Shown here: one piece after another, positions 9,333 to 63,699 of the stretch | Position numbering within the stretch: position 1 is the stretch's first letter | Layout of the letters: each line of letters begins with the position of its first letter | Source of the DNA: Microbotryum silenes-acaulis | Lineage: Eukaryota > Basidiomycota > Microbotryomycetes > Microbotryales > Microbotryaceae | Length of the DNA stretch: 64,000 nt | NCBI GenBank assembly: GCA_003665825.1 | Contig: QPFY01000005.1 | Span: forward strand, 1,612,001 to 1,676,000 | Direction of reading: 5' to 3' | Notes under the pieces: generated by a model | What the model was told of the DNA's origin: nothing | What the model saw: only the letters and a program-made list of their open reading frames with translations | Databases searched by the model: none | Position numbers and translations under genes: made by a program

Positions 9333-9640
9333 TGTTGAATTCCATACACTCTTGCTTAGATCAATCTCCAATCCGCGCCGCGCCTGGCTAGCCGCGCCGC
9401 TTGGACCTCTCTTTGGACTTAGAGATATTTCGCACACTCGCACTGCGCGCCTCTTTAGTCTTCCCCCTAACGCTCCAAACTACTCCCTTACAACCCGTAC
9501 TCTGTCTCGTGTACTTACTGGTTGCCGATCCAGGTTAGTTGCAATCCTAACGCTCCAAACTACTCCCTTACAACCCGTACTCTGTCTCGTGTACTTACTG
9601 GTTGCCGATCCAGTCCCCTCTCGAGACATACGGTTTAACA
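9333..9640 (+). repeat. 3' LTR of C1 (308 bp, with GT-AG segment)
   Basis: Begins TGTTGAATTCC after a 7-G polypurine tract and ends GGTTTAACA. The 80-bp segment 9534-9613 starts GTTAGT and ends CCAG and is mostly a second copy of the preceding tail. The right flank gattc is inside a family B LTR, so C1 was inserted into the 5' LTR of B; the left end is outside the window. Confidence 0.93.
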
Positions 9641-11108
9641 GATTCGCGCGCGCGCCCGCTAGGCCGCCCCCTTGCGGTGGGGACTTATGTTGAGTGGAAG
9701 CCGAAAAGGTTTCGGACTTGGGAGTAGCGACCGCTTGGGCTACTGGCGGAGCGTCGACGTGGCTACAGTGTGCGACGGACGGGCCGGGGGGAGAAGTCGT
9801 GAGGCGGCACGGACGCGGTCTGACGAGACGGACACGGTGCGGCTGGACGATCTGTTCTCTACCGAAGATTAGCGGTCTAGCTAATGTTGGGAAGCGGTAG
9901 AGAAGAGGAAGAGAGGCGCGAGGGCGCGCGAGTCGGGTGAGGTTCCAGCAAAGGGCCGCGCTAAGACAAACTGGGCTAACACAATGCGAAGCTTCAAGAC
10001 CGAACTCCAAGTGGACCATCGAGGCTCTGAGGGGTGTCGTGTTGGACGACGGACACGAGGGGAAACTTATCTACACGATCCAGAGTTGTTGAGTGAGGCG
10101 ATCCGTGACGACAGGCTTCAGGTTGCGAACCGCGGGCATCATGAGTGGGCGATGTTCTGCATGGCCGATGGGTCATGAGGTCGGCGGTGGCAAACTGGCT
10201 GTGGCGAGGCGGAGGCGTTGGCTCGGCTAGGCTGGAGAGTGCGGACTGACTAAGTCCCGGCGTGGAGGCAGCGGCGCGCGAGCGTGAGTTGAGCAGGCTG
10301 GCGCGGAGGCGGAGACAAGGGGGCGGCTTGGCTGCGAAGGCGAAGGCGCCTAGGCGAAAGACTGGAGGGGGGGGGCGGCGAAGGCGGCGAAGGCGGCGAA
10401 GGCGAAGGCGCCTAGGCGAAAGACTGGGGGGCGGCTTGGCAGCGAGGGCGAAGGCGCCGAGGCGAAGGCGCGCGGCGGCGAAAGAGGCGCCGAGGCGAAA
10501 ACTGGGCGGTGAACAAGGGGGCGGCTTGGCTGCGAAGGCGCGCGGCGGCGAAAAAGGCGCCGAGGTGAAAGTGCCAAGAGGCAAAGGCGCGTGGTGGCGA
10601 GCATGGCAGAGTAGGCAAAGCTGGCAACGACGGGCAGACGGACCGGGATGTGGACAAGTTGACGAGCGGTGCACATCGGTCGAGGGACGAGGCCGGGTGC
10701 GAGGATCATGCAGCGAGGCTCGAGGGACAGGGGGCGCGGTGGAGGCTTGCGGAGGCGAAGACGCGCGGAGCGAGGCGCCGAGGCGAAAGGCGGGCAAGTC
10801 CGTCAAACGGCGGTCCGATGTCGAAGTGTTCGAAGGCTTGACAGAATGCAATTCAACAACTTAGACGCGCACGACTGCCTCAGCCCGCCGGCGATTTCGC
10901 CCGCGGCTGACTTAGGGACGTTCATTGCCACGCGCCTGGGCCTATCCCAGCGCGGCCCCTCTTTCTGTTTCTTAGCTTCCTTCTCATCACTTCTGTTCGA
11001 CGCTCAACTTCTCCTGACAGTAGTGGTGATCGTCTCATAGGTACGCTGAAATACATCACTTCTGTTCGACGCTCAACTTCTCCTGACAGTAGTGGTGATC
11101 GTCTCATA
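9641..11108 (+). repeat. 5' LTR of B, truncated on the left and interrupted by E1
   Basis: Bases 9641-9687 and 10859-11108 match the intact B LTR at 35215-35539 from its position of about 110 onward. The first third must lie left of C1, outside the window. The LTR ends CGTCTCATA just before the primer site. Its tail is duplicated, with linker GTACGCTGAAAT. Confidence 0.9.
9688..10858 (-). mobile_element. E1: solo LTR-like element of family E, 1171 bp
   Basis: Starts TGTTGA and ends TCAACA, with the 5-bp TSD actta at 9683-9687 and 10859-10863. It holds no convincing coding sequence; long frames in it are artefacts of GC-rich repeats. It includes an array of short GCGAAGGCG and GAGGCGAAAG type repeats at about 10310-10580. 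I place it on the minus strand because there it starts TGTTGAATTGC, like the C LTR, and because the tail duplication in its sister E2 has the linker GTTAGTTGCAATC on that strand. Length and ends fit a long LTR of an unseen element. Confidence 0.75.
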
Positions 11109-11109
11109 G
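11041..11109 (+). other. Candidate GT-AG intron in the B leader (69 nt)
   Basis: GTACGC at the start and CATAG at the end, where the last G is the first base of the primer site. Positions from about 11053 repeat the tail that precedes 11041. The 3' LTR of the same element lacks the segment. Confidence 0.5.
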
Positions 11110-11131
11110 GTTATTAGCCCATCGACCTACC
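11109..11131 (+). other. B primer-binding site, tRNA half-molecule type
   Basis: GGTTATTAGCCCATCGACC directly follows the LTR. The complement reads GGTCG-ATGGG-CTAATAA-CC, which looks like a tRNA D-stem, anticodon stem and a loop with anticodon AAU (isoleucine). The gag start codon is only 7 bp downstream. Confidence 0.65.
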
Positions 11132-61900: not shown

Positions 61901-63333
61901 ATGAGTCTCTCGTGCCTGCAGACTCCAAGGTTCTCGGTTCGCGCTTTGTCTTCCGCACAAAACGCGATCAACACGGCCAAATCAAGTCGTACAAAGGCCG
62001 CCTGGTTGCTCGTGGTGATTCTCAACGCTCGGGCATCGATTTCGACGAGACCTTTGCCCCCGTCGCCAAATTCACCTCCATTCGCACACTCCTGGCCCTC
62101 GCAGCCGCTCATGGGTACCACGTCCACCAGGCCGACATCGACAAGGCTTATCTTCACGGTAAACTCGACAAGCCCCTGTACATTCGCGTGCCCGAAGGGA
62201 TTTACATGCCGGGCAAGGTCCTCCAGCTGCACCGGTCTCTCTACGGCTTGCGCCAGGCTGGTCGCATCTGGAACGACGAGATCGACTCTGCATTGTCGGC
62301 ACTTGGCTACGTCGCCACCGAGTCCGACCACTGCGTCTATGTCCGCACTGCCGGTGATGAGCGCCACTACATCGCGCTCTATGTTGACGACTTGCTCATG
62401 ATCAGCCCTTCTCTCCCAGAGATCAAGCGTACCCTCCAAGGCCTTGAACAGCGCTATGGTGTCAAACGACTCGGTGAGGCTGAATACGTCCTTGGTATCC
62501 AGATTCGGCGTTCTGCCGACGGCTCCATCTCCCTCAGTCAGGAGCAATACCTCAAGGACGTCCTCGCTCGTTTTGGTATGTCCGATGCCCATCCCGTTGC
62601 CACGCCCATGCAAGCCGATCTCCGCCTCGAAGTCGAGCTCCAGCCCACCCCGTTCCCGGATCGCACTCGGTATCTACAGGCGATTGGCTCCCTCATGTAC
62701 GCATCGACCGGTACTCGCCCCGACCTGGCCTACACTGTCGGTTACTTGGCTCGGTTCTCTCAGTCACCATCCGTTGCTGCCTGGGGTGCTGTCAAGCACG
62801 CCTTTCGCTATCTCGCTGGTACTCTGTCTCACGGTCTACGCTACACTTGCGGGGATCCGGCACCCTTGGTTGGCTACTCGGACTGCAACTGGGGTGCTTG
62901 CGTCCTATCCTCAAAATCGACCATGGGTTACACCTTTGTCTTCGCAGGCGCGGCCGTCTCGTGGTCATCTCGCCTCCAGTCTCGGGTTGCCGACTCTACT
63001 TGTGACGCCGAGTACCTTGCCTTGTCACACGCCGGCAAGGAGGCTATCTTCCTACGTCAGCTGTTTGGTGAGCTCGGCCTTCCTTCATCCCAACCCGTTC
63101 TCATCTATGGCGACAACCAAGGTGCCAATGCTCTCACCAAAAACCCGGTCTTTCACGCTCGCACTCGGCACATTCGTCTTCGTGAACACTTCGTCCGAGA
63201 TATGGTCTCCCTGGGTGACATCATCGTACAATATATCGCCACCAGCGAGATGACTGCCGACATTTTCACCAAGGCTTTGTCTCGCGACCTCTTTGCTCGA
63301 CACCGCGGCCGACTTGGCATCTGTGTTTCCTGA
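58979..63333 (+). pseudogene. D3 gag-pol with a single-base frameshift in integrase
   Basis: The first frame (58979-60577) holds Gag, protease DSGANRHM and the integrase finger. Near 60531 the sequence reads GTTGCCAAATG where D1 and D2 have GTTGCCCAAATG; the loss of one C ends the frame just after the first catalytic Asp (HVDVA). From there the other frame is open to 63333, with the remaining integrase core, linker, RT (YVDD) and RNase H. All else matches D2, apart from the ATAQAV residues (present here) and few substitutions, such as K for E in PEIKRTLQ. Recent inactivation or a sequencing error in a short C run. Confidence 0.93.
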
Positions 63334-63351
63334 TACTCGAAGTAGGGGGGG

Positions 63352-63699
63352 TGTGAGATTGACAACCTCTTCTATTTCCTTCTCATATCATCCCTCACTT
63401 CCTTTCCTTGTCTTCTCTTGGTTTTTGGCCTGCCTTTTCCCACCTAGCTCTCTTCCTCACTGGGCTGGGTCCGTGCGCCTGACACAGGCCACGGAGCCAG
63501 CCCCGAGCTTACCTCAGCCAACTGGCTCCGCACTTCTCACTCTCCTGCTCAAGCAACTTCTTGGTCTGGTCTCCTTGGTCCGTCGATCAGAGCCTAACCA
63601 CCGCTTGAGCAGGTGTGTAACAAGCAACTTCTTGGTCTGGTCTCCTTGGTCCGTCGATCAGAGCCTAACCACCGCTTGAGCAGTCGTCGCATCTTCATA
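63352..63699 (+). repeat. 3' LTR of D3 (348 bp)
   Basis: Follows a 7-G tract. It carries one 71-bp GT-AG segment (63613-63683), with GTGTGTAACAAG in place of GTGTGTAAGAAG. Confidence 0.94.

Follow-up and report, generated by a model that had tools for sequence, protein, structure and literature searches.

LTR retrotransposons in the window

The stretch of DNA analysed here (the window) comprises 64,000 bp of Microbotryum silenes-acaulis contig C5 (C5:1612001-1676000); the entire genome consists of 29.85 Mb in 88 contigs. The window is crowded with elements bounded by long terminal repeats (LTRs), which belong to five families, A to E. This study deals with short segments in these LTRs, called units below, that begin with GT, mostly end in AG and are missing from the short forms of the LTRs. 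The sequence examined consisted of the window, 160 kb of contig C1, 40 kb adjoining the window and 13 small stretches. Unit types were defined from about 0.30 Mb of sequence plus genome-wide pattern counts.

Based on the RVT_2 domain (PF07727), 5-bp target site duplications (TSDs), a polypurine tract and a primer binding site (PBS), the elements are Ty1/copia LTR retrotransposons. In domain searches RVT_2 gave at least 150 scored matches genome-wide, and the chitin synthase N-terminal domain 5. A total of 21 TSD pairs was found in families A–D; family E is placed with them tentatively. The 3' LTRs are preceded by a run of G (the polypurine tract) and the 5' LTR ends are followed by the PBS, GGTTATNAGCCC. 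In the window this primer site is present at positions 11109, 18674, 38586, 46369 and 58866, and its N varies among families and even inside family D. We take its complement to resemble an anticodon stem-loop (CU NAU AA; initiator methionine CAU, isoleucine UAU, isoleucine AAU), as in the half-tRNA priming of copia elements. The single pattern match for a host tRNA fitting the site was not a tRNA gene by ARAGORN.

Units in the LTRs

Tandem copies at a spacing of 65–80 bp were found inside the LTRs, and the units were obtained by dividing each LTR where its tail ends. All five length differences reported in an earlier, sequence-only reading of this DNA are present: 70 bp in A (LTRs of 329 against 259 bp), 69 bp in B, 80 bp in C (308 against 228 bp; some units measure 79 bp), 71 bp in D (348 against 277 or 278 bp) and 67 bp in E (65–67 bp across all copies examined). 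The 71-bp unit of family D is designated D2, and one copy of it is internally shortened to 57 bp. A second type in this family, D1, is bounded by GT and AG and measures 65 or 68 bp. The sequence-only reading described every unit as mainly a tandem copy of the preceding tail; this holds for all types but D1, which is no tail copy.

Every unit is preceded by AG and begins with GT, and removal of the unit from the LTR gives the short form. The description of the units as exact GT...AG segments stands for their start, AG/GT, and in general for an AG end, with two exceptions. Units of C, D and E end in an AG of their own, except one D unit ending in AA (C1 region 126020). Units of A and B end in ATA inside the LTR, and their final G is the first base past it, which belongs to the PBS in 5' LTRs and to chance flanking sequence in 3' LTRs; the AG is thus complete by design in the transcribed leader only. 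The units had also been placed in the LTR tails; the E unit stops 165 nt upstream of the LTR end and does not reach it. A single breakpoint can be set in C, D and E, since GT comes after the first tail, and TC (C and D) or AT (E) after the unit. Multiplying the frequencies of AG and GT in the LTRs gives 0.0025.

The units and the short LTRs of the window are as follows (window coordinates, strand, description).

13530..13599, plus strand: A unit, 70 bp, GT to AG, in LTR 13270-13598; last G in the flank
27625..27694, plus strand: A unit, followed by a 14-bp duplication not bounded by GT and AG
32537..32606, plus strand: A unit, followed by the identical 14-bp duplication
38517..38586, plus strand: A unit in 5' LTR 38257-38585; the PBS begins with its last G
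43416..43485, plus strand: unit; last G directly past the LTR end (43484)
1956..2214, plus strand: short A LTR (3' LTR, 259 bp) without unit; the 5' LTR just beyond the window is also short; TSD TTCCA
7237..7456, minus strand: short A LTR (5' LTR) without unit
11041..11109, plus strand: B unit, 69 bp, stub GTACGCTGAAATA plus tail copy
9534..9613, plus strand: C unit, 80 bp, 3' LTR
46262..46341, plus strand: C unit, 80 bp, 5' LTR
50049..50128, plus strand: C unit, 80 bp, 3' LTR
17674..17753, minus strand: C unit in 5' LTR 17647-17954; 3' LTR of the element (13940-14167) without unit; TSD ACGTC
13940..14167, minus strand: short C LTR (3' LTR, 228 bp)
21635..21714, minus strand: C unit, 80 bp
25596..25675, minus strand: C unit, 80 bp
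34643..34722, minus strand: C unit, 80 bp, 5' LTR
58643..58707, plus strand: D1 unit, 65 bp, GTGAGC to AG; not a tail copy, match limited to the last 9 nt
58708..58778, plus strand: D2 unit, 71 bp
58779..58849, plus strand: D2 unit, 71 bp
63613..63683, plus strand: single D2 unit in the 3' LTR of the element with units 58643-58849; TSD AGTTC
56209..56279, minus strand: D2 unit, 71 bp
18396..18673, plus strand: short D LTR without unit; extra A at the predicted start site
35639..35705, minus strand: E unit, 67 bp, stub GTTAGTTGCAATC in common with C

Genome-wide, patterns for the donor junction (up to 3 mismatches; biased to conserved copies, the AG end lying outside the pattern) matched 273 A, 79 E, 30 C and 90 D2 junctions. 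AG/GT was kept at every listed junction of A (100 of the 273 listed), C, D2 and E.

The LTRs of families A–D on contigs C1 and C5 were parsed into units, with 9 unparsed matches (1 A, 7 B, 1 C) outside the counts. Among the A LTRs, 9 had no unit, 34 had one and 1 had two; one of the nine (window 2382-2666, minus strand) holds a damaged unit. Family B had 2 LTRs without and 2 with a unit, and family C 8 and 9, respectively. The D LTRs comprised 5 without unit, 3 with one unit (U), 2 with D1+U, 3 with D1+U+U and 2 with D1+U+U+U. Overall, arrays hold 0–4 units, with AG/GT between neighbouring units.

Many tail-length variants without GT and AG ends had been named as an observation that would speak against introns. 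One such variant was found: where the A tail ends, 14 bp (TAGAGTTGATCGAA) are duplicated in two LTRs 4.9 kb apart (window 27678-27708 and 32590-32620). The D unit of 57 bp is a further length variant, shortened internally. The U3 region of family A contains a 39-bp tandem repeat (window 1983-2102, 13297-13416, 27392-27511 and 38284-38403).

Comparison with host introns

The actin-family genes of the genome are interrupted by short introns. For comparison we used 15 of their 28 predicted introns, hand-picked after inspection and therefore biased to canonical ones; a 334-bp actin intron is among those dropped. These host introns begin with GTGAGT, GTGCGT, GTCAGT and the like. A G at position +5 is present in 15/15 of the hand-picked set and in 20/28 of all predicted introns. 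In the hand-picked set, 12 of 15 have CTNAY, a motif resembling a branch point, at 8–60 nt from the end, and 14 of 15 are 61–105 bp long.

The eight unit types, which are partly dependent (A and B are related, and D1 and D2 have two related variants apiece), all have G at +5. All eight also have CTNAY at 15–23 nt from the end, against 25% of shuffles with the motif at 8–30 nt. With 65–80 bp the units are within the host range; the 57-bp unit is just below it. Between D subfamilies the motif differs solely at its free position (CTAAC/CTTAC and CTCAC/CTTAC), D1a and D1b differing at the N of CTNAC. The C donor GTTAGT has become GTCAGT in 5 of 30 genome copies, and GTCAGT is also found in 2 of the 15 host introns. 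The intron-like character proposed in the sequence-only reading is thus borne out in +5 G, CTNAY and length, as compared with the 15 hand-picked host introns. Based on these signals the units are probably spliceosomal introns in the transcribed LTR leader, and are predicted to be spliced.

Ordinary tandem repeats that are never spliced could also give long and short LTRs, by slippage alone. A contraction by one repeat produces the same short form as splicing, and by sequence the two are indistinguishable; in addition, length steps occur in U3 too. However, this explanation does not account for AG/GT at the unique breakpoints of C, D and E (a composition-based 0.0025 for each family), for CTNAY in 8/8 types or for the GT and AG bounds of D1, which is not a tail copy. 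We consider it quite improbable.

Stub, variable base and tail copy

In all types but D1 the unit is composed of a stub (GT plus 6–17 nt), 1–2 hypervariable bases and a copy of the tail. The final tail of an array runs straight into U5 without a stub, which is the order that a spliced template would call for. In all five families the tail copy starts with A, and the A of the first tail is preceded by two pyrimidines and a pyrimidine block. Among all windows of the LTR this block ranks 1/270 in A, 1/363 in B, 1/288 in C, 3/468 in D and 1/974 in E, with 7, 20, 3, 10 and 3 windows, respectively, tied at its value. We infer that the first A of the tail, following YY on the pyrimidine block, may be the transcription start. 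The predicted transcripts would open with ATTCATC (A), ATCACTT (B), AACGCTCC (C), AAGCAAC (D) and ACCGCTT (E).

Directly ahead of the second-tail A, family A has T, G or C, family B has C or G, and 30 copies of family C have T (27) or A (3). In 90 copies of D2 this base is C in 73, G in 11, T in 5 and A in 1, and family E has eight distinct joints among 18. The first tail shows no such variation ahead of its A, save for three D copies with an extra A. The D2 stub GTGTGT is invariant (90/90) and 75 of 79 matches to the E stub region are identical over 21 nt, the pattern itself limiting the visible variation in both cases.

The second tail might instead be a second transcription start, marked by the variable base, in which case the unit would be a promoter duplication. 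The position of the variable base, directly before the second-tail A, agrees with this. The pyrimidine block, however, precedes the first tail only, and the identity of the tails and AG/GT are left unexplained; a promoter duplication therefore seems hardly credible to us.

Of 82 units, 66 have two tails without any difference (A 30/38, B 2/3, C 11/13, D 8/10, E 15/18). In gapped comparisons the mean tail difference within an LTR and between copies, respectively, was 0.15 and 2.8 in C (up to 9 between types), 0.33 and 3.7 in B, and 0.33 and 1.6 in E. As judged from these differences, the tails of B, C and E show concert within LTRs. Among the E copies, L038 has three tails and the related L045 has two unlike tails, indicating that repeat slippage is also at work.

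LTR pairs and long and short elements

Among the 21 TSD-paired elements of families A–D, both LTRs carry one unit in 11 and no unit in 4, and the other 6 are unequal; two of the pairs span 14 and 18 kb with intervening elements, and a lone 5-bp match may be chance. Three of the unequal pairs belong to D and one each to A, B and C; in these last three just the 5' LTR has the unit. Between paired LTRs the variable base differs in 2/17 and other sites in 9/6,449 (Fisher P = 3.5e-4; the site was selected post hoc).

In the retroviral scheme both U5 regions are copied from a single strong-stop cDNA. The argument that unequal LTR pairs exclude splicing was dropped, since according to the accessible part of PMC5371799 the R-U5 regions of the two Ty1 or Ty3 LTRs derive from separate cDNA copies, the transferred plus strand pairing with R-U5 at the end of the minus strand. 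With such separate copying, spliced and unspliced leaders could yield unequal LTRs.

The short forms are recent. One A element bounded by short LTRs on both sides lies at C5 27127-32214 in region coordinates, window 1-2214 being its 3' part. It is 5,088 bp long, against 5,228 bp for a long element (2 x 70 bp), and differs from it by one further substitution in 4,884 aligned bp. This fits the earlier suggestion that short LTRs may be derived from spliced RNA. In family C, alignment of a short/short element with a long one over 3,775 bp showed 4 mismatches and one gap. Another short C element, on contig C1, is 4.8% divergent from this short/short element, so the change between long and short occurred more than once. 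A change made in the two LTRs together suggests an event at the level of RNA or cDNA; this is compatible with splicing, and slippage on cDNA is possible.

Relations among the families and origin of the units

The sequence-only reading held that the five families were unrelated and had gained their units separately. This does not agree with the tails of A and B (1 of 1000 shuffles matches the A tail as well as the B tail does) or with their stubs, GTATGTTGAAATG and GTACGCTGAAAT, which are alike. The tails of C and E are unlike (267 of 1000 shuffles do as well), but their stubs have the first 13 nt in common. Five independent gains are rejected in view of the A/B tail homology and this common C/E stub.

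The units had further been attributed to tandem duplication of a segment holding AGGT. At the breakpoint the long forms have AG/GT, and the short forms have AG/TC in C and D and AG/AT in E; in A and B, AG/GT is present at the border of LTR and PBS alone, and only in this respect could these two families fit such a duplication. Plain AGGT duplication is thereby rejected for C, D and E: their short LTRs have no GT after AG, and the GT derives from the stub, which these LTRs lack.

Introner elements provide many near-identical new introns in one genome, as the units would here, and are inserted in many host genes. The stub sequence CAGGTTAGTTGNAATC has 100 matches in the genome (reversed control 0); of these, 12 were examined, and each lay in the tail of a C- or E-type LTR and outside host genes. 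Retroviral splice donors within R, e.g. in HTLV-1, resemble the present ones in lying in the LTR leader; their acceptor is far downstream, whereas here the entire predicted intron is inside the LTR (in A and B the last G is the next base).

Three further systems can be compared as far as the accessible parts of the sources go. In introns formed by AGGT tandem duplication (ATP2A1, potato RdRp; PMC4974935) a neighbouring exon is likewise copied into the new intron, removal of which restores the old exon. They differ in that here the short LTRs of C, D and E have no AGGT at the breakpoint, the donor belonging to a stub that only the long LTRs possess, and in that the copy starts at the predicted transcription start and is present in many copies. 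In Ty1 and Ty3 (PMC5371799) minus-strand transfer also brings the RNA 5' end to the 3' R, with separate R-U5 copying per LTR, whereas here an end-to-end join behind the intron stub is predicted, with R repeated. The lariat proposed for Ty1 RNA (PMC1266399) also joins the RNA 5' end to the 3' LTR region, and a branch could yield the variable base; the Ty1 site is the first nucleotide of the 3' R, whereas the present one would lie past the tail, after the stub.

Distribution and head-to-tail arrangement of the elements

In several large contigs the elements are concentrated in one stretch, often at a contig end (C1:515-660 kb, C2:1-140 kb, C5:1580-1690 kb, C7:1480-1600 kb and C9:1-115 kb). These clusters are possibly centromeres. 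Window 17646-25876 holds a head-to-tail repeat of 3,961 bp (4,270 bp identical), consisting of a C LTR with D sequence between. Another contig (G000:C3:2458-44886) has D2 junctions at eight places with a period of approximately 6,050 bp, in most cases two junctions separated by 71 bp; this is perhaps a tandem array of elements with common LTRs. LTRs of family E are arranged head to tail with a spacing of 1,579 or 2,174 bp (C1 region 107365-109937; C18, C19 and C37), the stretch in common being 994 bp.

A possible mechanism for rebuilding the intron

From the structure of the LTRs we lean towards the view that these probable leader introns of 57–80 bp, predicted to be spliced, are rebuilt as reverse transcription joins the 5' end of the RNA to its 3' end. 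On the rebuilding taken by itself we are evenly divided. More tentatively still, and with somewhat less than even confidence, we propose a self-rebuilding intron: splicing would remove it, and the first strand transfer would restore it from cDNA of the spliced 5' exon and an RNA 3' end just inside the intron.

Transcription would start at the first A of the tail, and splicing of the leader would join the tail (exon 1) to the remaining U5 (exon 2). With a poly(A) site 8–19 nt inside the intron, the 3' end of the RNA would retain tail-AG-GT-stub. Minus-strand cDNA of the spliced leader would reach the cap, add 1–2 untemplated bases and continue on the RNA 3' end. Addition of untemplated bases at RNA ends is a property of reverse transcriptases. 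The product, U3-tail-AG/GT-stub-N-tail-AG/U5, would contain a new spliceable intron and correspond to the observed long LTR; the second tail would be renewed from the first, the stub kept and N variable. Ordinary tail-to-tail pairing on spliced RNA would give a short LTR, and end joining on unspliced RNA two or more units. An identical junction might be reached by another route, if the RNA were joined through a branch, as has been proposed for Ty1 in the accessible part of PMC1266399.

Several points weigh against rebuilding. The model was formed after, and on, the data it explains. The number of units behaves as that of a slipping repeat, as the unequal pairs (6/21) illustrate, and units of one array often carry an identical N, as slippage would give. 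In one pair N was not the only altered site of the unit, and the two changes are both known from other copies; recombination between copies may possibly have caused them. The junction of U3 and first tail is unchanged (0/19), where ordinary transfer after the cap might leave a difference. In 4/12 A pairs the U3 differs by 39 or 26 bp and the 39-bp repeat lacks GT and AG ends, a control indicating that such length steps arise without introns. The A tails are nearly invariant, so that concert is not visible (mean 0.24 within, 0.05 between), and the D tails differ more within (2.6) than between (0.9), owing to one shortened unit in an ungapped comparison. Finally, the common stub of C and E has no explanation in the model.

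Alternatively, the introns could go back to one or a few duplications of a segment of the leader (with filler) and be passed on by ordinary reverse transcription, slippage altering the number of units and keeping the tails alike. The arrays of 0–4 units, the unequal LTR pairs, the three-tail E copy L038 with its unlike two-tail relative L045, and the U3 length steps as a control are all in favour. Such an origin leaves unexplained, however, why a hypervariable base is found exactly before the A in all five families, why the stub is nearly constant and why the copy starts at the pyrimidine block. We regard it as rather unlikely.

A literature search limited to titles and abstract openings, most subscription papers being outside its reach, did not find an LTR-internal intron rebuilt or removed in this manner. 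The accessible part of PMC10085805 describes ordinary minus-strand transfer only.

If rebuilding at strand transfer is true, the predicted LTR introns of M. silenes-acaulis would outlast a step that normally erases introns, retrotransposition being held to delete them. They would also represent a new route to introns, with hundreds of copies and a known parent sequence in a single genome. The families would then provide one system for testing both the origin of introns and what brings the two ends of a retrotransposon's RNA together in the first strand transfer.

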